Below are positions 8,577-63,807 of a DNA stretch of 64,000 bases, piece by piece. The notes under the pieces were generated by a model that saw nothing but the letters and a program-made list of their open reading frames with translations, did not search any database and was not told the DNA's origin. Positions within the stretch are counted from its first letter, which is position 1. The number at the start of each line of letters is the position of its first letter. This stretch comes from Centroberyx gerrardi (taxonomy: Eukaryota; Chordata; Actinopteri; Beryciformes; Berycidae): NCBI RefSeq assembly GCF_048128805.1, contig NC_136017.1, positions 14,842,307 through 14,906,306 of the forward strand, written 5' to 3'. The position numbers and the translations under genes are program-made.

Positions 8577-11500
8577 TACAGACACTAGGGCTAGACTGAT
8601 ATATTGGGCCGATATGATGGATATGATGCTGTTTGTTTGATTACATATTTATTGTATAATGGATCAATACTACACTGGTTGTCTATGGGAAGCCTTTAAC
8701 CTGAATTGATTCTAATGCACATTCCATGCATAAATGCACGCATAAATAAGTTTATTATTAAGATTATTATTATTATCATCCTGTTTTTAAATGGAGAGTT
8801 TTAGTGTCCCATGATCTAAAAGCTGTTTCAGAGTCTTTTCCATTCTGATAAATAAAAAAAAAGAATTCTGAAGGAAACAGTGAATACTTTTTTGGTAATA
8901 TTTCTGCATGAAAATGGTCACATAGATATTATATATTATATATTATATATATTCAAAGATATTGAATCTCGGCTCAAAATATTGGTTATTGGCATCTTCA
9001 CTCCAAATATATCTGTCGGTATCGGCCTTCAAAACCCATATCAGTCGAACCCCAACATGAACTATGTGTAGACCTAGTCCAGGAGGATCACAGGTTTTAC
9101 AGCCTCATAAGAGGCTATAAAATGTGTTTATGTTTCAGTGGTAAATATGTTGATGATGCTGATAGAGCTGTAAACTTGACCTTAAGGGCCAGAGGAAGAG
9201 AAAAATGACATTTTGAGTTGCTAGGAGGCGTCATCAGGTTTCCCCAAGCAGAAGCCAAAACACTCACAAATATTTAGGAGAAATCTGCAATACTGCATAA
9301 AAGTATTTCTCTTCACTCTTTCTGAAAACTTTGTGGTGTAACATTTTCTCCGTTATCTCTTAGCAAGCTTGAGGTGCTGCACTTCCAGGAACACATGTCT
9401 GCAATGTTCTGGTAGTTTATCCACCACAGATTAGGTAGTAATTTGATTTGGTGGCACAATGATCAGAGCAAGTTACAACAAGTATATGGTGGTGATAAAG
9501 TCTGTTTGACCACATCCTCTAATACTGCATAATCAGTTGCTGCCGTTAAGCATTCGACTATCATCCACTAACCAGATTTCCCATGTTGGCCCCTTTCGCC
9601 CCCCATAAGCCCAGGGCCTGAGAAAGCTGTTTGTGTTGTGTGCTGACACCTAATCACACACACTCTCTGAGACACACACACACAAACAGAAACACTGACG
9701 GCAGCTCCGGAGACGTCATGAGAAGTGAGATGATGTTCTCGATGTTTACTGTCCATGTTCCCCGCAGCTCCGGAGAACAGAAGGAGAAATGGCTCTCCCT
9801 CCTCAAAAGGTAAACTCTGCTAGTGTGCGTGTGCATCTGTGCGTATGAGACATATATGTAAATACAAACTGAACATACCAAACCTCGGGTCAGGAACATT
9901 GAATGATCTTTATATTCCTGATCCATCAATAGAGATCCTACATCTATCTTATCATATGCTGTTTCTCTCCTCTTCGCTTACTTTCCAGTCTAATAAAAGA
10001 AGAGAAAGAGAGGGAGGAGCCTAAAACCATTCCTCTGAAAGTGCACGGGAAAGGGATCAACACTTTTGCTGTTGTAAGTTTACTTCAACCTGTTTATAAG
10101 TAGCCTGCATGTGGCATTTATGTGTGTAAGTGTGCATTTTTTCATGTGTCCATTCATGAGTCCCTTGCAATGTACAGTGTGTGACATCCTGTTGTTCCTG
10201 TACCATGTATGTCTCTATGTACTGTGTTGTAAATGTCAATGTAAATGTAAATTGTCACTATGTCTCTGCACTAATGCCACCAAGAAGAATTCTCATACTT
10301 TTGTCTGTACTTGGCGATAAAAATGATTGTGATTCTGGCTGCCTTCTCCCCTGTTTAGACCAAAACCCTCCCAGTCAGCAACTCAGATTCAACCAATGAG
10401 GTGGTCCGACTGGCCCTGCAGCAGTTTGGCATCGCAGTGAGTAAAGTTAATCTGGCAAATACTGACCAATTGTGCTAGCTACTTTCTTAAAGCTATACAC
10501 AAGCTTTTGGGAGATTGTCCCGTTGGTCAATTTAGCTGTTAAGTGATGAGAACATAGACACCAGAATCATCCATGGGTCCCCAGTAGATCATTGGCTGCG
10601 GTGCTCCATGCTAACACTTTAGCATACACTATGTTGAGTGATAGTAGGCTCCATGCTAACACTTTAGCATACACTATGTTGAGTGATAGTAGGCTCCATG
10701 CTAACACTTTAGCATACACTATGTTGAGTGATAGTAGGCTCCATCCTGGCACTTTAGCACGCACTATGTTGAGTGATAGTAGGCTCCATGCTAGCACTTC
10801 AGCATGCACTATGCTGAGTGATAGTGACTAGCATTATCACAAAAGTGAGAAAATGAGAACATGTAGCAGCTCTAAAGCTAAATGGTAAGTAATCTTAAAT
10901 GATATGTGACTAAGTCCGGCAATTTTGTGTAGGAGATTGGTAAAATCTACAGGAAATATGATATAAAAGTAGCAAGGACTACTTTCTCTTTTTCCATATG
11001 AAAAGTGAAGGCGATGGGAGACGTTGTACAGCTAAAACTCATTACACAGTGGATGAATACATTGCACACCTGAAATAGTTACAAAAACAAACATCAGTTA
11101 CAGTATATTATAAATCTACATGCTATTAAGACCTTTTACTACTAAAAGGTCAGTCTTCTTACTTTGTAAAATGCTAGTCACCTACAATCACTCAACATAG
11201 TGTATGCTAAAGTGTTAGCAGGGAGCACCAGAGCAAATGATCTACCAGGGACACATGAATAATTTTGGTATCTATGTTCTCATCCCTTAAGGGATAAGTT
11301 GACCAACGTGACAATCTCCCAGAAACCTTTTGGCAACAATTATAACCAACAGTATTTTTTCATGACACTGCTGTTATCCAAACTGATTTGATCCCTGTTG
11401 ATAATTGCCCATATACCATCACTGTTTGTCTGGAATGGTTTTATTAGGAAAACCTTGCACTCTGCATTCAGACTGCTAGTAAACACATCACTGTGCGACT

Positions 11501-14500
11501 GTCTGATAGCTGATTTGTGCTTGCGGATTGGAAGCTGCAGTGCCGTTGATGCACTGGCGTTGTATCAACAGACGGGACATATAGCGATACTAGTGTGTGA
11601 TTGGCTACAGACAATGTTGCCCATAAGTTCAGCTGCACCAACTTTTCCTTTTCAACAGCAGGAAGCACAGTGGTTGACGAAGGATGACTTTACCACAGAA
11701 AATCCCTAGATTTATGGCTTAAGTTAACTTGTAAACACACAGCATGTGAAGGTTGGAATAGAATGACATTCTTTGTCACTCTGCTCCTCAGCACCACAGG
11801 ATTGTGTGTCTTGTTTTTTGAAGGATCTCTGCTCCAGGGTTTCACGAGTTTGTGCATATTGGTTTTTAAGGCATCTTTCTCTCTGAGTCCTTGCAGGGCG
11901 TGTGTCTTGTTTTCCTGAGTATCTTTATCTCTGTTTCCCACAGGGAAACGTGAAAGATTACCAGCTGTGGGTCATCTCCAAGAGGGACAACACGCCCTAT
12001 CCTCTCATTGGTCAGTGAGTCTCATTCAGTGGTCCGGTCCCAACCTGAGGCCCGGGACCCCGCTGGGGGCCTTCAGAGTTGTGGGGGAGACAACAAGGTG
12101 TCAGAGGATACTAGGCATGAGAATAGAAAAATTAGTGAATTCACAAAATGAGTGAACTATTGGAATTCACTCATTTTTTCATCTGTTGTTGAGTAACAAA
12201 AGCAAATGTCCTTAGACCCTGCCTTCTTCCTTTTAAATTGCTGTTGGTTCATCCAGGCAGAATTTGTTTCCTAAACAAGTTATGTGACATGATTTCTTCG
12301 ATTTCAAGACAAGACAGCTCTTTATACCCCTATCTCTCTCTCTTTCTCTCTCTCTCTCTCACAGGCATAAAACTCCTGAGCCTTGACACAGGGGTGTGAT
12401 GTTTTTTTTTCAGGGTTGAAGTTTTTTTGGAGACACTAGTACCATTCATTCCTAATGAAGACTCCGGTGTTATCCTGATCTCATTCCTGCAGGGAGGGGG
12501 GGGGGGGGGGGGGGAGGAGTCCCTGAACGCAGGCTGGCTAATAATGTGATGTGAGAGTGTGGTGTTATGTTATTTAACAACCATATCAAACCTCCAGGGA
12601 TCAATACTGTCTCTCTTTCCCTGTCCCAGGTCATGAGTTTCCCTTCAGTATCCAGATGAGTCATGTGAGGGATCTGCTGTGTCAGGGAGGCAGCAGCAGG
12701 GACGCTGTGCTGTCTCCGGACAGACAGAGGGCGCTGCAGGCGGAGCAGCTGCAGGCGGACAAGCAGTGCCAGTTCATCCTGAAGCCGCGGCCCGTCGCTA
12801 CAATACAGCAGCACGTACCTGCAGGTGATAGAGTCCTGCTATTTGATCTATTTGATCGCTGCAGCAGGCAGATCTCCCGTCAAAGCATTTGGTTGGTGTT
12901 AATTTCCCACCTTGCTATCAACACTCCAACCCATGTATGTACCTTTCCATATGGGTTGAGGATTAATTCACAGCTCTTTCTGTACTGTGACCCCCGCTGA
13001 ATCTGGAATTGGGAAAAACTGGCAGCCATCAAATTATCACTGTGTTTGCAGATGACACTTTGTCATACGTGAGACAAATTCCATTTAATCTAACCTAGAT
13101 GGATGGGTAAATAGTAATAAGTTTAGTCAGCTATATAAATTAGGTAAGGTGACACTCAGTTAACATGGTAGATAACAGAGTTGTAGCTAACGTTAGCTAA
13201 CTTAACTAATATGGCACAAAAAGGTTGCTAACACCAAAATGGCTAAAGCAGACATAGCTAACGTAGCTAAAAATAAATAAATGAATAAAATTCAAATAAT
13301 AAGTCAGCAATGCACACTAAGATCTGATGCGAACAGCCTTGAGGTGTTGCTTCACTTGTTTTTTGAAACTAGCTTTATTCTGAGTTTTAGAAATATGACC
13401 TTGAAGGGAGTTCCATTCAACCATAGCTCTATACAGCACTGCATGTTGTTTCGATTTGTTTTGGTTTTTGGAATTGTGTAGTTACCGCTGGTGGCATGTC
13501 TGGTGGGGTATGTGTGTGCATTAGAGCTAAGTGTGAGCTGCCTATACAAACAGTCAGGGATTTTCAATACATTAATGTTTTTTACAAAAGAAAGAAGTGA
13601 TGCTTTTAACCTCTCATCAACTTTCAGCCAGAAGAGTCGGTCATGCATGTCGTTTATGTTAGCTCTCAGTGTGCACTGAAGGGCAAGCCGAGCTGCTCTG
13701 TTCTGAACCCGTTGTAGCTTCCCTAGATTCGTTTTTGTAGTACCTGACCAGACCACCGGGCAGTAATCTAAGTGTGACAATACTAGAGTCTGCAGGACCT
13801 GTTTGGTCAGATGTGGTGTTAAAAAAGAAGAGCATCTCTTGACTACAGATATGTTTCTCCCCATCTTTTGCACCAATGAATCTATATGTCTTGACCATGA
13901 CAATTTACAGTCTAAAGTTACCCCAAGAAGCTTTGTTTCCTGTACTTGCTCGACAGCAACATTGTTCAGTACCAGATTCAGCTGGGGTTTAGAGCTTAAT
14001 GAGTGTTCCAAATACAATGCTCTTGGTCTTAGGTATGTTCAGGACAAGTTTGTTATCAGTGATCCAGTTAAAAACTATTTGCAACTCTTTGTTGAGGGCT
14101 GAGGTGATTTCCTTAACTGTAGGTGCAGACATGTAGAGTGTTGAATCATCCGCATACATAGACACACAGGCTTTTTTACAAGCAAGTGGGAGGTCATTTG
14201 TAAAGATCGAGAAGAGCAGTGGTCCAAATGAAGAGGATCATGTATCTGCTTTCCAGAGTCGTCTCAGAAGCCGTTCAAAAGGAGGCGTTCCCTCATCAAC
14301 TGGGCCTTCTGGCGGGGCTCCTCCTCTCACCTCAACGACTCGTCCCTGTCCCTGTCCGGTCCCGCCCCCGGCTGCCTGTTCGGACAGCCGCTCGGCGCCG
14401 TCTGTCTAGAGGAGACGCTGCCCAAGCCAGTCATGGTGAGGGGGCACAGTGACACAGCACTGACTTACATTTACATTTTAGGCATCTAGCTGATGCTCTT

Positions 14501-17500
14501 ACCCAGAACGACTTACAATTCTTCAACAGTAGCAGAAATTCCCAGTTCACGAAAAGCAACGAAAAGCAATGGAAGGGTCAAGGTCTTTATGCGTTAACAA
14601 TATTCCTGTCTCTTACTGTCTCTCTCCCCCTCCTCACCTTCCTCGCCCTCTTCCCTCTCCAGGACATGCTGGTGTTTCTGTACCACGAGGGTTCATGGAC
14701 GCGAGGGATTTTCCGGCGGCCAGCTGGGGCTCGGGCCGTCAGAGAGCTGCGGGACGCTCTGGACGGCGGGGAGTTTCAGCTTCCTCTGACACGAGACCAC
14801 GTCTTTATTATTGCTGGAGTCTTTAAGGTAGGCTTACTGCTGTGTGTGTGTGTGTGTGTGTGCCTGGTTATGGCACAGATTAGAGTTTTAGTTGTACAAA
14901 CATTTCTCAGAGGGTTAGTCGCTCTGGAGTTAGTAGGGATGAACAATTCCAAATTTTTTGGAGTCAATTCCGACTCCAACTCCTTGTAATAGAATTGATG
15001 GATTCGATTCTAAATTAAAATCAACACAAAAATTTGAACGTTTAACGACTGTGGTTCCTTGGCTCCGCCCATTGAGGTTTAACTATCAATAAGATTATTT
15101 CTGCCCACAGTGCAACTCTGCCTCTGAGAAATGTTTGTACAAGTAAAACTCCAATCATATTGTGAGCTACCACCGGCATGACATGGCACACATCTCAATG
15201 AAAACAGTAAATGTTTTGTCAAATCAGTTTTCCCCAGGTTTTTGTGACTTGGTGGTGCTGAGGTGCAGTAACTGATATCAAATGGTGCTCCTGTTGAAGT
15301 GATTTACTGTACTGTTCCATTTACATTCAGGCATTCAGCTGATGATGATTGCCAATACAGCAAGCAGTCCATAGTATGGAGTGCTTGCTGTTCATGTAAT
15401 AATATAGAATTGCTAAGAGCAAGGCAGAAAAGGGTGAAGTTTTTATAGACAAAACAGGAGCAAGATTGGCTGATTGTAGAAATTTGCTGCAAATTCACAA
15501 GCTGTTGAGGCAACACTGCTGAACCATTTGGACAGACTCCTATGTTTAGTCATCTTATGTACCAGTGGGAATGGAACCACTAAGCAATGCAGTGTAAGTC
15601 CTATAGGTTGCTGCTTTTGAAAAACTTCTACCAGACAACTGGATACAGTTTCAGGCTGGGTAGCTGCAGTGAGAATCCAGTCCCTCGCCACATTGCAATG
15701 CCGTGTGTCTTTAGCATAACAGTCTTCAAATGCTGCTCCTACTTTAATATTTTTAAATACAAGCGGACACAATTTAATATAGCCATGGAGCTTTGTTAAG
15801 AAACTTTACAACTGTTTTTGGGTGTGTGTGGTGCTGGTTTTTAAGTTTGCATACACATGTCTGTGGGTGTGTGTGTGTGCCTGCATTACCATGTCAAGTA
15901 CCTCAATGACCCATATTTGTAAGAACATATTTAATCTGCTCCATCCCATTTAGCCTTTAGTCCTAGGTGTAACATGCTATCCAGCAACTTTCATAACAGG
16001 GCTGGCTAGAGATTGGCTTGTCATTTAATCTGGATTATAATCTGTTATTATCTGGATGGATAATAGACAGCTTCCCTGCACTAATGCTTAAAACTATGTC
16101 AAGTCTACAGCAGTGATAGCACCTGTGTTAATGTGCTTTAGGTTTAGATAAAACTTTGATGCCCATGGGTCTCATTTATCAATATTCTATGTATGTGAAA
16201 CATGGAGAGATGATAAAATATTAGATCAAAACCTTCATTTTAGCAGACCAGGGCAAAATAGCAGTCAAACACATTTTGAAAACTGAGCAGTCCTTGAGAG
16301 ATGTATCAACTTTGGAGACTTTGTAAGTTTCTGCCAAGCGCTTCTCACCAGATGAACATATTTGAAACTACAGATGGAAACTTTGGGCTGCTGTCTTCAT
16401 ATCATCTCCTTAAGCCCTCATTCAAACTGACGAGTGAGAACAATTTTGCACTGACCTGGAATGAAAAGCAGTAGGAAAAAGGCTGGAGGGCTGGTGAAAT
16501 CATCATCCCCGTTTGAAACCATATTCAGATGTTTTGGTCTGGTGCGTTGCATTACATTACATCCTGACATCCAACTCTGTGTCGTCCTCAGGGATTCCTC
16601 TGTAACATCCCAATCAGCCGACTGGGATCTGACCTATATTTTTCAACTGTACACATTTTGATCCTTAATATTAAATGCATGATAGAAAAGAGGCAATAGA
16701 AACGTACAGAATTCAGGACGACAGTGCTAGTAGAGATATATGTCTGAAATATTATATTTATTTTGCATATAATTCTCCTATTTTCCTAATTTCAAAGAGA
16801 ATACCACTGAATGTAACTAATGTCTTCTCTTTTTATATGGCATTTCAATTTGTATTAGCAAACATTCATTACTGTCCCTCATAGCCAGTAATAAGAAAGA
16901 AGAGCTTGCCTTACACCAAGGCCATTAAAGGATAAGGCTGGTGTTTTTTAATGCATTGCTTACCGTCAACAAATCCTATGAAAATAACAAAATCAGCAAT
17001 GACTTTGTTTTGCCAGCAAATCTCGTCCATGTAGCCGATGCCCAATGCAGCCATGTCCCAGCAGCCATAGAACTCCATTGTATTAAAAAAACGATTAAAA
17101 ACATGTCAAAGAGCCATGCCGTTGCTCTGGGCAACATATTTCATCATCACGATGCACCGGGCCAGCCGACTTTTTCCTCAAACAACTTAATAAGCCGACT
17201 GTAAACACTTTGCGATCTCAGGAAAGTAGTTTCGTAGCACCGAAAATAGTCACCGGCGTAATGAAGAATTTGTTCCCATTTGAATTTGATTTGGTAATAA
17301 CTACAACAGTCTGACTTTTCGTGGTAACAGTTAGCGATTTTTAAAATTGAAACTTTGTGAGCTGTATTTAAAGGTTTTTAGCTTACAATTGGAGCCAGTT
17401 ACTTCCGGGTTGACGGCTAAAAACGGTACGTGGGAAGTCAGAAAGTAACGGGAGTAGAGCAAACGCATTGTCGATTTTGTTATTTTCATAGGATTTGTTG

Positions 17501-20500: not shown

Positions 20501-23500
20501 CTCTGTTAATGTGACCAAACTCATGACATAATTGTCGACTGGTGATGTTTACAAAGTTGGCAATTGAATCCCATATCGGGTTAAACCCATATGGGATTTC
20601 CAAGGCCTATACCGACACCATTGTTTTTGCAGTGAAGCTGCCAAAACGGATAGTTTGTACCAATATTTAGTATCTTTAAATGTGACAATTTTCATGCTAA
20701 AAAAAAATCAACAAATTTACTCAGATTTTTTTTTATTACTGTTAATTTATAAAAGTATTCAGTGTTTCCCCCAGAACTTTATTCTTGGCAGCGTGGAAAA
20801 GCATTTGAAAAAATTTAGACCATGGGACACTAAACTACTACTACTACTACTACTAATAATATAGGGTTAGGGTTCATGCTTCCCATAGACAACCAGTGTA
20901 ATATTGAACAATTATACTTTATCAAACAAACTGCATCATATCCTTCATAACAGAGGTGGATAACATTGACTGGACCATATCCAATTTTTTATCAAATATG
21001 AAGGGCTTTCATGTGACATAACACCTCTGGCGGTCATATTGGAGGTCCTCAGCTCTTGGCAAATAATGGCTGAGAACAGCTGATTGCGTTTCTCAACATA
21101 CAACTTTGTATGTATACTTTGTATGTAAACAGAATTTAATAGGCATGTTAAATTTCTGTGCTCTTTTTCACTGGGAACGTATAATTTCACCTTCAGGTCG
21201 ATTTTCTTATTGCAACTGATGCGCACTAGCTAATGTATCTAGGACAAGGAAACGTTAGTAGTGGCTGGTAGTCGTATTAACATTTACATTGGTTACTTTA
21301 CTAAATTAGTCTGCTAGTTAGTTAGCTAACAAAGCCACAAAAACAGCTCATTGTTCAGGTGAACTGAGCTGACTCTTCTCAAGCTACAACTCAGAGTGTT
21401 TTGGAGTAGAGACTAGAGCTAAAGACAAGACAGTTTACTGTGTCACAGTAACCTACATTTGGAAATAAATCCACCTCATCAGACCACTCGTCCTTACTTA
21501 TAACATTACTTAACTGACCTACCACAACCGTCTTTTCAGGTATCTCTATTGTTCTTGTTAGTTGTTACACATTCAGCCATTTGCACATAGCCAATTCTCC
21601 AGTGGACCTCCAAGATGCCGCTGATGTTTGCTAGGAGATTTGTGATGCAACTGCAAAGCCTCTATTGGCCCAATATGTCGGGAAACCAATATATCACTCT
21701 AACCCTAGTGTCCAGCTATGACAGCTGTCTCCAATTTAAACATTTTGCAAACATTTTGCTTTCTCACAGTCTCCTTCCCTCCATCTCATTTTGTTCTGTC
21801 ATCCTCTTCCTGTCCTCGACTCTGTCAATCTCTCCACTCTTCCATCTCTTTCTGGCTTATCAGATTCCTGGCCGTACCCTCTGACCGACTCGTCCTATGA
21901 CAGTCTAGAAAATGAGTTAGACGACTACAGCAGCAGTGGGTCACCAGCCGGCCGCACCAGAAAGGGCCGCCTTAAACCCAAACAGCTGCAGGGTAGCACG
22001 GACTCCATTATCACACTCAGCGACTACGACCAAGACACCGACCCAGATACACTCCACACGCACGACCAAACCGGCAACCTGAAATGTCTTAAGCTGCCCC
22101 AATTAGGGAGACCCAGAGGCAGGAGACAGGGCCCAGACACGGTTCTGTCCTGCCCCAACCAGGACGCGCCAACTGCGGGTACCTTGTCCACGCTGGACTC
22201 CCTGTCCCTGGAGGGTCAGCAAAGCCGGCGGAGGTGTTCCGAGCCGGCTATTGCGTACATGACCGAATTTCGGCCGCGCCTTTCGGGGAGCGCCGAGGGC
22301 CTCACTGGTGACGACGAAGAGGATGATGAAGAAGAGCTTTACACGCACGCTCACACACACTCCAGGGGTCAGAGCAGGAGGGGTGGACGCGAGTTCGGCT
22401 TGGGCCCGCATGGCGCGAGGTGGCAAGCTCTAGAAGCCAGCTCCTCCAGCCTCTCCTCTGCCGCCACCTCCCCCGCCCCGAATCGCTCCTCCCTCGACTC
22501 CCTCGACTCCCTCGACTCCCTGCATTCCCTGCACTCCCTCTGTGACCAGACCTGGCAGACCAGACGGGGGCTTTGCCCGGCTAAAGCGTACCTGCCCTCC
22601 TCCACCGCCTCCTCCTCCTTGACCGTCCCCTCCTCCTCTGGCTCCCTCTCCACCTCCCCCTCTTCTCCCTCCACCCTAGGCCCTGCTCCGGCTCCCGGCG
22701 GAGGTCCAGACCAGGGGACTTGCCCACCCAAAGAGCCTCTCTCCTGGGGGACCTTGAAAGGCAGCAGGGGCCTCCACCCAAACTCCTGGCTGAAGAAAGC
22801 CCGGAGGTTGTCGCTGACCCAACAAGACAACTTAGAGAAGGAGGAGGAGGACAAGACTGGGGTGAGTAGAATAATAGTTGTCTTACTATGGCGCTTCAGG
22901 TTTGAACATATCATTTTTAGGAGTTGTACTGTGTTTAGCACTTATGTAAAGTCATAACCTACCGACTTACGGCCTTCTGGTTCCAAGACCATGCTATGTG
23001 AATGTCTGTTCATTCTCACAGAGCAAGAGAGTCCTGTTATAACCACTGGTTTACCCTCTCTATCTGTCTCTCCTCTCTCGTCTGTCTCTGTATAAACATC
23101 TACATTCTTATATCTCAAATAGGGAGGATCCACTGATGCGTCGCTCCCTCTCAGTAAAGAGAAAGGAGTACCAGGGGAGAAAGGAGGAGGAAAATGGATC
23201 TCCACCGAGCACCCCAAGGCCAAGCCGTCCTGCAGAGCCACAAAGGAAAGAGGAGGTGGCGTGCAGGCGAGGGGGAGGTCCGGCCAGGAGCCCGCCAAGC
23301 CTCGACCCCCTAAGCACGACTCCTCCAGCCCCCCCTCGCACCACCGCTCCACGGGGAGCCTCCACTACCCCAAGTCCCCCTGCTTCCATCCCTCCGACCC
23401 CTCACTAGCCGTTCGGCAGCTCGTAGACACCCACGCCAAGGCCTCCCAGCAGCACGCCCACGTAGCAAGTGACATCACCGAACAAGCGGCGGGAAGTGAC

Positions 23501-33500: not shown

Positions 33501-36500
33501 TATCCAAAGTAAGAAGACTGACCTTTTAGAAATAAAAAGTTGTACGTGGTTTATATTATATGGCCTGTAGATTCATACACTTTATCATGAACTCTATGTA
33601 GCTGATGCAGGCAGGTTTATTTTTGGAACTATTTCAGGTGAACAACCACATATTCATCCGCTGTGCAGAGATTTTTAGCTGTACACAGTCCCCCATCATC
33701 CAGTACCTTCACTTCCTATGGAAGCAGGGAAACAGCATGTTATTTTTGTGTAATACTTCATGTCAATTTTACCATTCTCCTAAATAAAACTGACAGACTT
33801 ATCATTTAAGATTACTCACCATTTAGCTTAAGAGCTGCTGCAAGTTCACATTTTCTCACTTTTGAGAATGCTAGTCGCCTCGTACCACTCTGCATACTGT
33901 ATGCTAAGGAGTTTGCGTGGAGCACCTACTGGGGACACAAGGATGAGTTTGGTGTGTATGATCTCATCATTTAACAACTATGTTGACCTGTAGCCAAAAA
34001 AACCTGGTGTATTCCTTTCAGAGACCATGTTATTGACCAGTCTGCCTCTCCAGTAGGACTCCACAGAGGCAGGAGGTTTCATCAGTGCAGTAATGCTCTG
34101 TGGAAATCAGTGTCCTCTCTACTACTCAACAACAGGAGGAAAACTACAAGACACTTTTGTGGAGGGAAGCCGACTAAGTCACACCTATTAGATCCCACTG
34201 TGCACTGAAACCTGGGCCTCGCTGGGCTGAATACTGTCTGCTGTGGCTGCATTGCCCAACAACAGGCATCTACTATCCCCTTGGCTGGCTGACTGATTGT
34301 TTACGTAGATGAAGTTACACAAAGCTGTGTTGCTGTGGCTTAATTTGGCCTGTCAAATGATATATGAGCGCATACAACAGTGACACCATATTCTTTTTTC
34401 TTAAAAAAAAAGCATGCTCATTTGTGGGCCTAGGCTATGTATGATCCATATAATTGTATATAAAAAAGAAAAAAATAGCAGTTATTTGGCTGGCAAATGG
34501 CTTTCCTTTTTAAAAAACAAATATTGGTATCAGGGTTGCCACATGGCCCTGATGTAAAATGACTTTCCATAACTAAGTTGGAGCGCTTCCATTTATTTAT
34601 TTATTTATTTAAAAGGATCCCCATTAGCTGATGCCCATGGCACCACAGCTGCTTAAGTAATGCATTCTTAAATGATATTTAAATGAGGACTTGCTATTAG
34701 ATTGACGTATATAAAGGGGGCAGCTATTCCAATGATTGATGGCATTAGATTTTGGGCAAGGTAACATGATTTGGCCATCACCTGCTGTTCTAGTGAAACG
34801 ACTGTGAAAGTTACTACATTTGATAATTTGACTATGTATGAACTTGGGTTTAGTGGAATAAATGCTATTGCTGAAGAATGTGACTGTGCTTAAGGCAAGC
34901 CTTTTCTCTACTGGTAACCATAAGAGTTTATGATGCATGCTGTCTGTGTTCGTTCTTATGGGGCAATGTAAGACTAGTCTGGCAGCTCTGTTCTGGGCAA
35001 TTTGTAGTTTCCTCAGTACACTTTTTGATGCAGATGACCATACAGGTGAGCAATATTCCAGGTGGCTTAAAATTAAAGATTTAACTACTTGCCCCAGAAT
35101 GTGTGTTGGAACATAAGGAAGGCATTTTCTTGCCATGGAGATGCTGTTGCCAATTTTCCTAACAGTCGTGTCAATGTGTTCTACCCATGACAGTCGACTA
35201 TCTATTATTACACCCAGTAATTTAACCTTATCCACCTGTTGTATAGGTTCACCAGACAAGTACAGACTCAGTGTAGGCATAGATGACAGTTTATAACTAG
35301 ATCCCAGAATAATGGATTTGGTCTTTGAGATGTTTAGTACTAACTTATTTACTTTTATCCAATCAAAGACCAAATTTAACTCGAAAGATAAAACTTTTTC
35401 TAGCTCTCCACTAGTATTTGCTGCATAATACAGTGTAGAATCGTCGGTGTACATTTATATACTTGCTTTTCGCAAAACAGATGGCAGGTCATTTGTAAAG
35501 ATGGAATACAGGAGTGGTCCAAGACAGCTACCCTGTGGCAGGCCACAGTCTAGCCCTTTACAGTTAGACATGCTGCCATTGTAATACACCCTTTGTGTTC
35601 TGCATGAAAGGTAACTCTTCATAAATGAGATGGCACTAGGTCTAAATCCATAGCATTTTAGTTTACCAATTAAAAGATCATGATCTATAACATCAAATGC
35701 CACACTAAAATCCAGTAACACTGCACCTGTCATCTTAGAGTTATCCATCTCCTTTAACCAGTCGTCTGTCATTTGTGTAAAGGGCGGAACAAGTAGAGTA
35801 GTTGTGTCTATAAGCGTGTTGAAATCTTGTATTTAAACCATTACAGTAAAAGTAATCTTGTATTTGCGAATGGACTATTCTCTCTATCAGTTTACTGAGT
35901 ACTGGGAGAATAGTGATGGGTCTGCTGTTCTGCCCAGTAAATGTTAATCTGCCATCTTTAGGTAAGGGAATTATTTTGCCCTCTTTCCAGATACTAGGAT
36001 ATATACCATCCATTAGACATTTATTTAATATATGAGATATGGGACCAGAAATGTAGTCAGCTGCAAAACATAGTACCTTACTGTCCAGCGTGTCATGACC
36101 TAAACATTTTATTCCTTCTTTATCTAATACAATGAATGTGCGAAACAAGTTGTAAAATACATTTGGGTGTATGTAAATTGATCCATTTGTAAAATTCCCT
36201 GGCTTCATCTGAGAGTTTATCAAATTCCCTGATTTTCCCCGTCTGGAATACAACACAAAATTCCATAACATTCCAGAAAACCCATGACGAGTGTAAACCT
36301 GTGAACCCCATGGTTCTATGGTGAACCGTGTGATATCAGCTTTCAAAAATCCACAAGTTATCAACCTCTACTACAAATTCTACACTGCTGTTTCAAAGGC
36401 AAGAACATACAAAGACAAGGCAATGACAGCATGTCACGAACTGAATTAAACTTTGATAGAGTCCAACCGATGTTGTTTTGAAGATGATTACTGGACAGAG

Positions 36501-40099: not shown

Positions 40100-40156
40100 T
40101 CTGACTTGCTCAGTCTCCCAAGTGTTCATCACATCCAACGAACACTGCTGTCTCAG
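40100..40156 (+). other. Probable 5' non-coding exon of the lectin gene
   Basis: CTGCTGTCTCAG followed by the strong donor GTGAGT at 40157, then (CA)n. The next exon starts at 40422, one base before the start codon. The left edge of this exon is not determined. Confidence 0.45.
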
Positions 40157-40162
40157 GTGAGT

Positions 40163-40422: not shown

Positions 40423-43400
40423 ATGCTGAAGTTAGTGCTGCTGTGCCTGGCACTGTCAGGTAAGACCTCACTCTCTTCTTCCTTCATTGACAAATATTCA
40501 TCAAATACCTTGAGTAAAGTATCAATAATTGTGTCATAATGTATAAACAGGCATTTCATTTCATGTAATTACACAGTTTTGTTCAATACTCAATTCTAGT
40601 TGGCCAGTGAAAGCATAACAGCATTTTTGTTGATTTCTAACAATTTTTTTTTTTTTTTTGATGATGATGTAACATATTTCCATCACAAAAAGAGAAAAAA
40701 ACAATGACAAAGTCCAGGGGCTATAGGGCAAATGTAACCGTAAAAATTATTCTGTCTGCCTTATGAGCAGCATTAAAGCAGAAGATACTGAGACATTTAA
40801 GGGATTTAAAATCATTTACAAAATCTATTATGAATAAAGTACATGAGGGCTTGGTATTTTTCCACTTGCACAAATGAATATGGTATTTACCCATAATGAT
40901 AATCACATTAATTAAATCAGAATATATTCAATAATATTCAAACACTGTGATAGCAGTTAATTTTAAAGATATCCATGTATGGTTATCCTTCCAGAATTGG
41001 TTGGAAAAGGCACAAGAAAAAATATGATGCTCCAGTGACTCAACACTGAACCTGTTTTGCAAAAAAAACCCAACAGGCTATATGGATGTCATGATTTTGA
41101 AATTAGTTTGTTTAGCCTTTGGGTTGATTGGGTAAGATGTAGCCTACCATGAGAAAGAGCTTGTTGTGTCAATGGGTTCCAACAGTCCAGTTCTGATCAA
41201 ACTATCTAGTGCCACCTGGTGCCATAAAGACGTTACTCCTTGGTTACTGCAGACAAACACTCAGCTAACTGAGGTTCAAAACATGCAAGACTTTTACAGT
41301 TTTTCTTTTGATTCATTTGGAAAGCAGTAAACTTTTCATTGTATGGAAGACTCTACCTCTACTTGACCATATTCAAACAGCATTTTGACAGGGTATTAGT
41401 TCTTGTGGGTTAGGGTACCGTGGGTGAACTAAGGCATACCTTGAGATTTAGCTCAGATATAGAGGAAATCAATGTCAAACAAACTTTTACTCCACTAAAG
41501 TTAATTTCAGTAGACTCATCAAAACCTGTCCCACCAAGTTGAGGCAAGTTTTGGGCTGAGTCATTTCTGTGGAAACTACTTGCTGACATTTTCACATCAT
41601 CAGTTTGCCTTTGCATGTTGTTGTTGAATGTTGTTGTCTTGGCAGCAAAAATGTGGAGAATGACTCTAGCAAACAATATTGTAATACAGTAATTGATGGC
41701 CTCAAAGAACGCGTGTATAGAGAAATTAGTCTTTGACCTTTATTGATTTATTACACTGGTAAAGAAAAGCTGTACATATTTTTCTGGCACAATAGTTAAT
41801 GATTGAAGAAACATCTATCTGTGAACTGGAAAAGTTTATGGCTTGATCCCTTGGAAGTCCAAGGTTGCTGTGTGTGTGCATTCATAAACTTTCACTATGC
41901 CTCCCTTTCCGCCTGTACATGAGCATCTGTGTTTCCCCCTGCCATCGAATAAGTCTTTTTACCCTGGAAATACATTCTAATTGTAATAGTATTAACCCTC
42001 ACAGGCCTCCAAGCTGTTCCCCTCGGACCAGCCAGAGGTTTGGACAAAACAAGAGCTCTCCCTTCTGGGTTCAGACAGGGTACCGAACCCTCAACCCACC
42101 GACTCCCCAATGGCTTTCAGCAGGGCACCGAACCCTCCGCCGTCCATAGATTTATCCCCGATGGCTTTCGCCAGGGCACCGAGCCCTCCAGGCGCTTCCT
42201 GGTCGACCTCAACACCGGCCTGGTGAAGGAACACATCAGTGAGATGGACCGGAGGGCAGGTGGGTAAACTGTAACTCATTTCTACCTCCATGTTTTGGTT
42301 TGCTGTTGCCAGGTCGGGAATGTTAGATAGGAATTCCACCCGTTATTCTGTGCAGAAAGGATTTCCACTTTTCTGCTTTTACAAAACATAAAAGTTCTCT
42401 TGTGCTTTCCCTCTTCCACAACTCCCTGACTCATTCTCCATCTCCTGTTTTATTTTTCCCAGCCCTGCTCCGTCCTCTGGGGAAAGGATTCGGAGAGATG
42501 GAGAGGAGACACTGGCTGACAAATCAGGGTGAGGGAGAGAAAAAGTTAAATGGTCAATTTGTTGAAATCCAACAAGAATGCTTGAGCTATTAACTCATTA
42601 GCATTGCCAATTTTCTATTTATCTTACAATTACAACTCAAACACATTTTAAGCTCCACTACCCTGGAGATGTCTTTTGAACTTTTTAGTGCCTAGGACTG
42701 AGCTCAATCCATGTCTGTGAAACCAGCCCATACATATATTTTGACTCTTTCTTTTATTACTGAATAAACAATAATAGTAATAATATACTGACTAACCTAA
42801 AGGCCCTCTGTTCCCCAGCTCCTGTTGATGTTCCAGCCCAGAGGATTGGTGGTGGTTGGGTCAGAGTGGAGGAACCATCTGCTCCGGCTCTCCCAGATGG
42901 TTTTAGACAGGGAACCGAACCCATGATCTCCATCCCAGAGGGTTTCAGACAGGGAACCGAACCCTTTCTTCGTATCCCAGAGGGTTTCAGACAGGGAACC
43001 GAACCCTTTCTTCGTATCCCAGATGGTTTTAGACAGGGAACTGAACCCTTTCTTCGTATCCCAGATGGTTTTAAACAGGGAACCGAACCCATGATCTCCA
43101 TCCCAGAGGGTTTTAGACAGGGAACCGAACCCATGATCTCCATCCCAGAGGGTTTTAGACAGGGAACCGAACCCCTTCTTCGTATCCCAGATGGTTTTAG
43201 ACAGGGAACCGAACCCCTTCTTCGTATCCCAGAGGGTTTCAGACAGGGAACCGAACCCTTTCTTCGTATCCCAGATGGTTTTAGACAGGGAACCGAACCC
43301 ATGATCTCCATCCCAGAGGGTTTTAGGCAGGGAACCGAACCCTTTCTTCGTATCCCAGATGGTTTTAGACAGGGAACTGAACCCATGATCTCTATTCCTG

Positions 43401-46215
43401 ATGGATTCAGGCAGGGAACCAAACTCTCCACCTCCAGGCTCCAAACAGAGACTGTGGTGTGTGAAGGGGAGATCATCAATGGAAACTGCTACCAGTTCAA
43501 TCCCACTCCACTGGCCTTCCAGGACGCACAGGTTAGACACAAATACCCATCATTGAATAGATAGGAAAGGCCATGCTCCCTAATGAAACTTTCACCCTGC
43601 TTAACAGATTCACACTACTTTTAGTATCACATGGTCTGCTTTTTTTCAATGGCTGAAAAACTACAAACTAAACCTTTTATGTGTGTGTCTGTGTGTCTCC
43701 AGTCCACCTGCAGAGCCCTCGCCCCAAATGCTGACCTTGCATCGGTAACCAATGGTGATCTGCATTCCCGCCTGGTTTCCATGGTGACCAAGGGCGGCAC
43801 GACCAGCCCTGTGCTGACCTGGCTGGGAGGCGTGGTCAAGGCAAGTTGCTCGCTCCGCCCGTCCATCACCCACATTTTGGAAGAGAAGGGAGATCAAAGT
43901 TTTTTTTTTGTCCTGAAATTATGTCCCACAGTATTTTACATGACAAAGGACATAAGGAAACACAAATATGAAAAGAATTCATTACAAACTGAGATAAATA
44001 CTATTTGAATAACAACTCAGCAAAATTATTGGCTGGCAAGTAAAACTGATCAATTTAATAACAACCCATTGAAAAAATTAGATACATTCAGCCATTTACT
44101 TCTGCATTAAAACAAAATGTTGAGCAATGAATGAATATCAGGTAATAATTCTCAAGCAAAATGGACATACAGCATTTTGGAAAGAAACAAGAGAAAAAAA
44201 AGATTTAAATCAAGGAACATAGCAGGAAAGGAAACTGTTATCACTGTTATGTTTATGTTAACAAAGTAGTCAATCCTTTTACCCTCAACACCCCGTATCC
44301 CCACAGCAGGGATTCCCAAAAGCATCTTGAGTCTAAGTTCATCTTTATTCTGTCGTAAGTGAAAGGAGTAAAGATGAATTTAGGCTGAAGATCTTTTGGG
44401 AAACTATCTCAGTACTTATTGGAGGCCAAGGAGACTGTGATCAGATAAGTTATCAGCAGGACAGACTGTGCTGTGCTTACCTCGGTACCCTTTGAACTGT
44501 GTCATTATTTAAAAAGGTTCTATATGTTTCTATAATGGCATCAAATGTGATTATTAATGTCAGGAGGTGAGCAATATGAGGGTAATTCAGTTCACAAGGT
44601 GCACAAAATGATCACTGTGGATACAACAAGGCTGAACCAGAGGCTCTCAATTTGGGGTTAAGGTTTTTTTTGGGAGGGTAGCGGTCACAGAATGATAAAT
44701 CATATTTCTAACATTGAACTATATTATTATGTCTCTAGTCTTTCAAAAATACTTTCTTGTGAAATAATGACTGTTTTTCAATCTATGATAATATTACTAT
44801 AAAGAGCCACGGAGCCGAGGACTCTATACCGCCGATTACAGGAGAATATGAGAGATTGCGTGGGCGTAGTTGTGCACATAATGTACCCGCATGCTTAAAT
44901 AAGTGTATGTGTGTGTGTTGCATCCCTCAGAAACAGCAGGCAGCGTGGGTAGATGGGTCGGAGTGGGGGTACAGCGACTGGATGCCGGGTCACCCCAACA
45001 TTCACACTGACAAACCGGTCTGTCTGGAGATGTTCAAGATAGGTAAGGCCTGGACTCACACACTCATGTCTGATTTATGGCTGAAGAGCTATAAAATGAT
45101 GTCAGCATAGGCTCAAAATTAACAAGGGAAAGTCAAATCTAACCTTCCACTGTTATGATTCCCCCTTTAAAGCCAGGTTACAGAAAGGTGATGCAGATCG
45201 GCTGTCTCTTTAACAGCAGCATCTATTCATTACACTTCAGCAGGGGTGATAAATATTCCTATGATGTCTATATTGCTTCATATAGTCGTGGCCATTAGTT
45301 AGTTACATAAATGTACAGTTGGAGAGACACGTGTTGCGAAATGACACCTTTGGCTCCTACTGCATGATAATATTGTAAGGGTTATAGATCAGACAGGCTT
45401 AGATAGGAAGAACCAAACGAACTGGCACACTGATCAAATAACTGTCGCATATTGGACATTTTTGCCCCGTGGCATTAAAGGAAACCTTAATGTTTTGTTA
45501 TTTTTTTGGAAATCTTTAAATCCTCCATTCCTTGTTTCATTGTAGTGACTTGCCAAGAGTGGGTACAAGCTACCTCTTGTGTCCCCTAAACAGTTACCAC
45601 AGCTCCAGTATAGGCCTATCCTTGCTGGATACATTTACTGCTTTTCAGATTGTGGTTCATATCACTCTGACAATGCATACAACTCCCAGAATATCGTCTT
45701 GCATCTACAACAGCAGTTCCCAACCTGAAGGTTCGGCCCCTCAGAGCAGAGTCTGAAGATCTGAGGGGAAACCTCAGGCAATTTGAGGCGAAGGAATTGT
45801 GAACCTGGGGCAAATAAGTGTCATACAACATTTTTAGAGAACTATAAGGGCATAAGTGAGGAAAAGTAGATGTAAATGGCCTTGACAAAATTCGGACATT
45901 GCTTCGAGCGGTCCATGAGTTGACCATTGAAGGTAGACATGAGTGTCTCAGTGTCAGGAACAAAACAAGCCTACAAGCTGACATATAGACGCTCTCTTGT
46001 CTCTTGCAACGTTAAGTCTGGGAATACCTTAACAGTCTGTCAAAATGTCCATTTACTACTGAGAAATAGCTTACAAAAAAACAGATGAAATGTCTCCCAC
46101 TTTTCAGTTTCACCACAACCTTGACTGTCTGTCCCCTTTAGATGAGAGCTGGTGGACGGCGGCGGACTGTGAGCTGCAAAGAGCGTCCATCTGCTCCTAC
46201 CCACTGGCTGCATGA
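40423..46215 (+). CDS. Secreted C-type-lectin-domain protein with GFRQGTEP tandem-repeat stalk, complete
   Basis: I do not recognise a named orthologue. Exons 40423-40459, 42005-42259, 42463-42528, 42819-43531, 43703-43840, 44931-45042, 46142-46215 join in phase to 464 residues. Residues 1 to about 16 are a signal peptide (MLKLVLLCLALSGLQA). Residues about 28-75 carry three diverged GF(R/Q)QGTEP repeats; residues about 143-325 carry 13 near-identical 14-residue repeats; residues 334-461 form a long-form C-type lectin fold with cysteines in VVC, GNC, STC, PVC, ADC and SIC, plus WLGGVV and WVDGSEWGYSDW. There is no transmembrane segment, so it is probably secreted. The intron after exon 43703-43840 uses a GC donor. 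The fold resembles teleost lectins and eosinophil major basic protein relatives; the repeat stalk I cannot match to any family. Confidence 0.9.
42889..43427 (+). repeat. 42-bp coding tandem repeat, 13 units (lectin gene exon 5)
   Basis: Each unit encodes IP(D/E)GFRQGTEP plus a variable tripeptide. Tripeptides between successive units run MIS, FLR, FLR, FLR, MIS, MIS, LLR, LLR, FLR, MIS, FLR, MIS. Only two unit types exist (MIS or F/LLR) with very few other changes, which indicates recent unit duplication or gene conversion. Unit length is divisible by three, so copy-number change keeps the reading frame. Confidence 0.96.
43432..46212 (+). CDS. C-type lectin domain exons of the repeat-bearing gene
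   Basis: The 3' end of exon 5 and exons 43703-43840, 44931-45042 and 46142-46212 encode the lectin fold. In place of the usual EPN or QPD calcium/sugar motif the sequence reads GHPNIHTDK, and in place of WND it reads WWTAADC. Canonical calcium-dependent sugar binding is therefore doubtful (inference from motif absence). The six cysteines fit a long-form domain. Confidence 0.88.
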
Positions 46216-46369: not shown

Positions 46370-46375
46370 AATAAA
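46370..46375 (+). terminator. Candidate polyadenylation signal of the lectin gene
   Basis: AATAAA lies 155 nt after the stop codon (TGA 46213-46215). A short 3' UTR would keep the gene from overlapping the convergent neurobeachin-like gene. Confidence 0.55.

Positions 46376-49294: not shown

Positions 49295-63807
<14,513 letters not shown>

Follow-up and report, generated by a model that had tools for sequence, protein, structure and literature searches.

The locus analysed here raises the question of what is conserved in a secreted protein that carries many copies of a short motif next to a C-type lectin-like domain (CTLD): the motif, the stalk that its copies build, or the domain. The window, i.e. 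the whole stretch of 64,000 nucleotides of Centroberyx gerrardi DNA under analysis, contains at 42005..43531 a region that the original prediction described as part of an unrecognised secreted lectin with a recently expanded, regularly spaced repeat stalk. These limits coincide with the exact start of one exon and the exact end of the exon bearing the repeats.

Organization of the gene and of its repeat array

Seven coding exons on the + strand are spliced into an open reading frame for a protein of 464 residues, unbroken up to the stop codon. A probable untranslated first exon was recognised by eye from splice consensus (40141..40156, + strand, donor GTGAGT at 40157); only its 3' end at 40156 is placed, 40141 not being taken as its true start. 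Because this exon apparently ends at 40156, the exon numbers of the original prediction exceed our coding-exon numbers by one. Coding exon 1 (40423..40459) provides the ATG and MLKLVLLCLALS, a hydrophobic N-terminal stretch judged by eye to resemble a signal peptide, and the start of the protein is similar in many relatives. Coding exon 2 (42005..42259) carries three diverged motif copies at 42067, 42112 and 42163, coding exon 3 (42463..42528) encodes a linker without repeats (KGFGEMERRHWL), and coding exon 4 (42819..43531) comprises a VPAQRxGGGWVRVE segment, the array and the beginning of the CTLD up to FQDAQ. The CTLD continues in coding exon 5 (43703..43840, from before C1 to WLGGVVK, with a spliced length that fits the relatives), coding exon 6 (44931..45042, the domain core with GHPN and C2) and coding exon 7 (46142..46215, ESWWTAADC...ICSYPLAA and the stop), and a polyadenylation signal AATAAA lies at 46370..46375 on the same strand. 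All six introns between coding exons end in AG and five of them start with GT; the remaining one, within the CTLD, has a GC donor at 43841 (AAG followed by GCAAGT), with which the spliced length of relatives agrees. The protein minus its first 16 residues is about 50 kDa. This seven-exon frame and a Pfam Lectin_C match of 35 bits (cut-off 22.6) bear out the proposal that one secreted-looking protein joins the repeats to a CTLD. As a gene it is ordinary: a real, well-formed member of a widespread, uncharacterised teleost family.

The counts of 16 motifs first given for this gene hold. GF(R/Q/K)QGT occurs three times in 42005-42259, not at all in 42463-42528 and thirteen times in 42819-43531, where the thirteen motifs follow each other from 42899 in steps of exactly 14 residues, or 14 codons, and form an array of 42-bp units GFRQGTEP(MIS/FLR/LLR)IP(D/E) (42899..43444, + strand). 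Twelve of the thirteen units are complete, with a mean pairwise DNA identity of 0.863 (range 0.738-1.000), while unit 13 keeps GFRQGT and then diverges (KLSTSRLQ), so that 'nearly identical' is a little too strong for all thirteen. None of the other Tandem Repeats Finder rows, 34 in all for the window, scores as high as the two of the array, 708 with a 42-bp and 831 with a 168-bp period; chance is of no concern. Both predicted unit types, MIS and F/LLR, are present; since they are not arranged in significant blocks along the array (p of 0.083 or more at every lag from 1 to 8), the window by itself does not establish ongoing unequal exchange, and it is the unit differences found in other species, described below, that speak for it.

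In the core, which spans eight codons, pN/pS is 0.12 for the full set of thirteen units and 0.06 once the incomplete unit 13 is set aside. The three old copies give 0.07 when compared with the twelve young ones and 0.11 when compared with each other, whereas the six flank codons of the twelve complete units have a pN of 0.24 and a pS of 0.34; the pairs compared are not independent. A core ratio this low relative to the flank is the pattern expected of selection on a protein motif.

Relatives of the gene in teleosts

Three protein searches returned 193, 197 and 49 matches, of which the best 120, the best 120 and all 49 were listed. The named relatives among them, as far as read, are teleosts ranging from herring, carp, catfish, characin, pike, salmon and smelt relatives to cod, squirrelfish and percomorphs. 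No eel, gar or tetrapod was noticed among the names of the matches listed (120 of 193, 120 of 197 and 49 of 49), and viral contigs scanned with the CTLD profile yielded no relative. Their labels read 'uncharacterized', 'lectin-like' or 'wu:fa56d06', or are misnomers such as 'RNA-binding protein 12B-like'. The best full-length match among those listed (P0003) is 72% identical over 100% of the query. The gene can therefore not be called unrecognised, many teleosts having annotated relatives; the companion claim that no such protein has been described stands, the database and literature searches having found no characterised orthologue. A search of the open literature for fa56d06, RQGTEP and locus numbers, supplementary files lying outside it, found no paper describing the family. 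A 'pan1-like' gene listed in a study of cold stress in tilapia (PMC10464439, available in part) was dropped as a candidate for the same gene, only the name being shared with the Sander entry P0001.

The window protein has the signal-like start, the RQGTE-type repeats and the CTLD of the teleost wu:fa56d06 family in the same order, and we assign it to that family; its relatives in many teleost orders are apparent orthologues, orthology and membership both being judged by sequence and without a tree. Entries that bear the name wu:fa56d06 itself differ from the window gene by their long units, about 36-77 residues apart instead of 14, and the carp-type ones by their lack of the CTLD. Two unnamed jgi contigs, P0006 (509 residues on 2086 bases) and P0052 (394 residues on 1426 bases), look like spliced transcripts since they are too short for a gene this intron-rich, and their lengths support the spliced frame.

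PF27023 is precomputed for some relatives; the window protein and five relatives scanned locally against Pfam gave no match to it. Within the repeats, Pfam matches to the unrelated families 40S_S4_C, CotJA (26.8 for a family cut-off of 25, in P0014) and SelB-wing_3 (32.1 for 23.2, in P0101) were rejected because these scores are sums over repeated short stretches, none of which passes alone. Seven isoforms are listed for LOC126402052 of Epinephelus moara (P0043, P0046, P0059, P0064, P0066, P0070 and P0081), several with different repeat numbers; their differences may be read-mapping artefacts of the array and not splicing.

Conservation of the motif relative to its spacing and flanks

Among 153 proteins, the commonest step from motif to motif is 14 residues in 101, 42 in 32, 41 in 8, 77 in 8 and another value in 4, with a step of 23 residues in one goby. 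The 14-residue form is that of cod, squirrelfish and percomorph entries and the long form that of older orders. A stalk with regular spacing, as originally envisaged, is thus not what is conserved: the commonest step varies from 14 to 77 residues while RQGTE stays. Multiples of 14 (42 = 3 x 14) were considered as a structural period and discarded, as steps of 36, 48, 54, 63, 66 and 77 occur too.

Constancy was counted over 1054 units of 88 arrays, taken at 14-residue steps between anchors with the units in between left unconstrained. The core is highly constant (G 88%, F 96%, R 91%, Q 96%, G 95%, T 93%, E 94%, P 90%), the commonest residue at flank positions 9-11 reaches 21, 35 and 54%, and positions 12 and 13 (I, P) are fairly constant and core-like at 83 and 88%. 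Over the 88 arrays, core identity is 0.893 within arrays and 0.870 between them, while flank identity is 0.640 within and 0.414 between. When the search pattern prescribes G, Q and G and restricts two further positions to F/Y and T/S, core identities come out at 0.96 within and 0.95 between (80 arrays); these values and a census of 971 units overstate constancy, since the pattern itself fixes residues. Judging from these alignments, flanks are homogenised inside each array and drift between species while the core barely differs, and the constant part of the family is the motif, not the stalk. Some copies do drift, to RKGTQN in 40 matches and to KHGIEY in 4, and isoleucine takes the place of threonine in some clupeiform copies.

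Origin of the repeats and apparent changes in copy number

Two types of long unit (177 and 147 units, from proteins P0099-P0153) have RQGTE in common and, of the 25 other consensus positions, agree at 9, a number matched by 0 of 20000 shuffles; Ser7, which counts among the nine, is imposed by the search patterns. By this resemblance both types look like copies of one ancestral unit. In the window, one long unit (RQGTEPSRRFLVDLNTGLVKEHISEMDRR) is retained after the third motif of coding exon 2, with 24 of its 30 residues as in the long-unit consensus, and the linker of coding exon 3 is perhaps the remnant of a second one, to go by the corresponding region of relatives. A long unit is likewise retained within the first 170 residues in 66 of 101 proteins of the 14-residue type, the misses pooling truncated models and real changes. 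The simplest reading would be that acanthomorphs re-amplified just the core of an older repeat of ~42 residues. The earlier suggestion of an old motif recently re-expanded was right. Part of the tongue sole array, as read from its sequence, has units of about 27 residues. A separate 16-residue amplification of a variant core (EYQHGIEYARSQISLD) occupies residues about 72-165 of an anchovy protein (P0113, Engraulis encrasicolus), with HGIE at positions 76, 92, 108, 124, 140 and 156, and is distinct from the acanthomorph 14-residue array.

Entries from the same species point to changes in unit number. Two Gadus morhua entries of 556 and 486 residues are 5 units apart, with 122 of 126 residues of the N part and 130 of 131 of the CTLD alike, and two croaker (Larimichthys crocea) entries of 481 and 425 residues are 4 units apart with both ends identical. 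Pairs from Sparus aurata (5 units apart), Nothobranchius (5) and Trematomus (7) may be models or isoforms from one assembly, and in the Pleuronectes platessa pair the arrays are 51 residues apart in length, which is no whole number of units, one model ending inside a unit. Altogether, full length differs by whole units in 7 of 11 pairs picked by eye (5 same-species, 2 between species), and the other 4 have N ends of unequal length as well. Array length thus appears to change by whole units between same-species database entries, with collapse of the array in assembly, as opposed to real polymorphism, a live alternative.

Features of the C-type lectin-like domain

The Lectin_C score above cut-off, the six cysteines of the long form and the fold place the domain in the CTLD superfamily; structure comparison confirmed the fold and singled out no subgroup. 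Profile matches to PDB chains include herring antifreeze protein (53.2 bits), lithostathine (41.4), EMBP (40.3) and many others. The domain is acidic (pI 4.79), unlike mammalian EMBP, which is basic. Its introns fall past FQDAQ (before C1), past WLGGVVK and past CLEMFKI (between C2 and C3), the same three places (upstream of C1, downstream of WIGL and between C2 and C3) that the available part of PMC514892 gives for the soluble CTLDs of the type II antifreeze-like, group VII (lithostathine/Reg) and group XII (EMBP) genes. A glycine at the fourth WIGL position, reported in EMBP and most type II antifreeze proteins (PMC514892, in part), is also shared: the window protein reads WLGG, and glycine occupies that position in 128 and alanine in 38 of 166 aligned CTLDs. 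What sets the window gene apart from these groups is its RQGTE-type array, of which their descriptions in the accessible part of PMC514892 hold none. The repeat region is not strongly acidic (pI 5.09), as against a pI of 3.62 for the neck of a Fugu EMBP-like protein in that partial source (PMC514892). Zebrafish eslec (si:dkeyp-75b4.10), an eosinophil-specific lectin, is a further CTLD gene and has been compared to mammalian EMBP by the authors who described it; the excerpted description in PMC10821951, by which alone it is compared with the window gene, contains no such repeats.

The designation as a lectin is doubtful. The usual motif set for calcium-dependent sugar binding includes WND, and at the sugar-site positions the window protein has HPN and WTA in place of EPN/QPD and WND, which sets it outside the calcium-dependent sugar-binding C-type lectins. 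Neither EPN/QPD nor WND is found among the listed variants, which cover 162 and 151, respectively, of the 166 aligned CTLDs, and QPN or QPS occurs in 16 of the 166 (24 of 189 CTLD matches were too short and left out of the alignment). Our doubt stems from this replacement of the usual calcium and sugar residues both in the window and in the listed variants; the label 'lectin' given to these teleost genes is thus without support from the usual site residues, although sugars could still be bound through another surface of the CTLD. The domain is 82-95% identical to its 11 nearest counterparts and, being well conserved where present, is no mere leftover.

Apparent loss of the domain in carp-type fishes

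Of 202 fetched proteins, 189 have the domain according to the CTLD profile. The remaining 13 are one Dallia entry, which may be a broken gene model, and 12 carp-type entries from 9 genera (Carassius, Onychostoma, Puntigrus, Cyprinus, Ctenopharyngodon, Culter, Rhinichthys, Pseudorasbora and Garra) that keep 8-13 motifs. Eleven of these 12 stop soon after an RQGTEY/RQGTER unit, at a place where loach relatives continue into the CTLD; the twelfth, P0129, ends earlier and is probably a broken gene model. All four sucker and loach entries keep the domain. No short CTLD protein named from a carp-type fish is among the 49 matches of the third search, which was aimed at such proteins, about twenty of the matches being nameless. 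Judging from database gene models alone, the CTLD was likely lost in carp-type fishes. Zebrafish, a relative of carp, may by inference have the repeat-only form.

Possible roles of the repeats

We tentatively favour, at somewhat less than an even chance, a secreted, disordered chain that displays its motif multivalently. The working part of the protein would be a flexible chain with many copies of (F)RQGTE(P), each most likely docking the same partner; if every copy does so, copy number would set avidity. The CTLD would act as a fold-stable tether or as a second binding surface, not through the usual calcium-dependent sugar site, and duplication and loss of whole units would alter copy number while selection holds the motif. 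In the predicted structure of a Myripristis relative, repeat residues 17-195 are under pLDDT 50, which is weak evidence for disorder, and the CTLD is folded (ten-residue means of 68-95, the last 59); the model of the salmon protein failed altogether (mean pLDDT 33). A motif kept while spacing, flanks and apparently carrier domain change points to a binding or modification site used many times. Binding is preferred over modification because the threonine and the glutamine are each replaced in some copies (RKGTQN, KHGIEY), and because the local sequence misfits the transglutaminase 2 preferences published in PMC9363462, as far as that source was available.

Alternatively, though we consider this unlikely, the repeats would serve as a spacer, glycosylated or extended, by which a sugar-binding head is kept off a surface or several heads are kept apart. 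The array does lie directly before the CTLD and is predicted to be disordered, and repeat necks of varying number are known in receptors of the DC-SIGN type. Like these, the window protein has tandem repeats beside a CTLD, in a single exon and in variable number. The necks of DC-SIGN and DC-SIGNR are, however, membrane-bound coiled coils of 23-residue units carrying a sugar-binding head, whereas here there is no visible membrane anchor, the chain is predicted to be disordered, each unit is 14 residues long and the residues usual at the sugar site are missing. A spacer needs length and not an exact short motif, yet it is the core that is kept while flank and spacing vary, and the 12 carp-type entries have repeats and no CTLD to hold off. 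Glycosylation is no general explanation either, since the window protein minus its first 16 residues lacks any N-glycosylation sequon and some clupeiform copies have isoleucine in place of the threonine.

Cleavage at basic residues could instead free QGTEPS-type peptides, perhaps with N-terminal pyroglutamate, from a multi-copy precursor. The long unit of older lineages, RRQGTEPSRRFLVDLNTG...DRR as read from the sequence, has basic pairs around it, and R9 and R29 are kept in 97% and 95% of 177 long units, a count that leaves out the R preceding the unit and is based on a search pattern prescribing residues 1-8. A precursor is nonetheless quite unlikely: in the window array a lone arginine precedes the motif (GFRQ), and neither dibasic pairs nor RxxR sites occur there, F and R stand before Q in 96 and 91% of the 1054 fourteen-residue units, and the consensus of the second long-unit type lacks basic pairs.

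That the array is a neutral coding minisatellite, a mutational by-product tolerated within a disordered linker, would fit the whole-unit differences between same-species entries and the similarity at a distance of two units, which is above the mean of shuffles in 40 of 45 arrays (30 at one unit, 21 at three and 26 at four; species not independent). We judge it very unlikely in view of a core nearly as alike between arrays as within them, where the flank is not, of the low core pN/pS of the window (0.06-0.12) against its flank, and of the presence of this core, unchanged or as a variant, in repeats of other construction (16, 23 and about 42 residues). Finally, a scaffold cross-linked into a covalent matrix by transglutaminase through a donor glutamine in each unit, a kind of array known in other extracellular proteins and one that would suit the least variable residue of the 14-residue unit (glutamine, 96.4% of 1054), is highly improbable, since the motif has Arg at -1 and Glu at +3 where transglutaminase 2 prefers Gln and Ile/Val, respectively, and where, at +3, four other isozymes favour a hydrophobic residue (PMC9363462, the part seen excluding fish enzymes), and since Lys replaces Gln in many cyprinid second-type units (RKGTQN).

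Multivalent display of the motif remains the reading we prefer. A broader proposal, possible but more doubtful than not in our opinion, is that RQGTE is an undescribed multivalent extracellular motif of teleosts, in which the repeats would be essential and the CTLD a tether that can be dispensed with and would have been lost in carp, the core having been re-amplified at 14, 16, 23 and ~42 residues and avidity evolving by unit number. Natural variation would separate motif, copy number and carrier domain, through same-species lengths, lineage-specific spacing and the apparent domain loss. The evolution of the family is unusual enough to deserve testing, mainly since zebrafish may carry the repeat-only form.

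Other features of the window

A probable RhoGAP domain is encoded by + strand open reading frames at 14453-14989 and 21740-22957 (PF00620, 23.6 bits for a cut-off of 24.5), the latter being mostly without Pfam match. On the - strand, 63427-63807 matches DUF4800 (154 bits) and 54437-54772 weakly matches NBCH_WD40 (20.4 bits, cut-off 50), which suggests pieces of a neurobeachin-family gene. Broken reverse-transcriptase-like open reading frames, recognised by eye at 13352-14038 and 34624-36367 on the - strand, are probably LINE remnants. A 45-bp tandem repeat at 10603-10825 has five copies with 94% matches.
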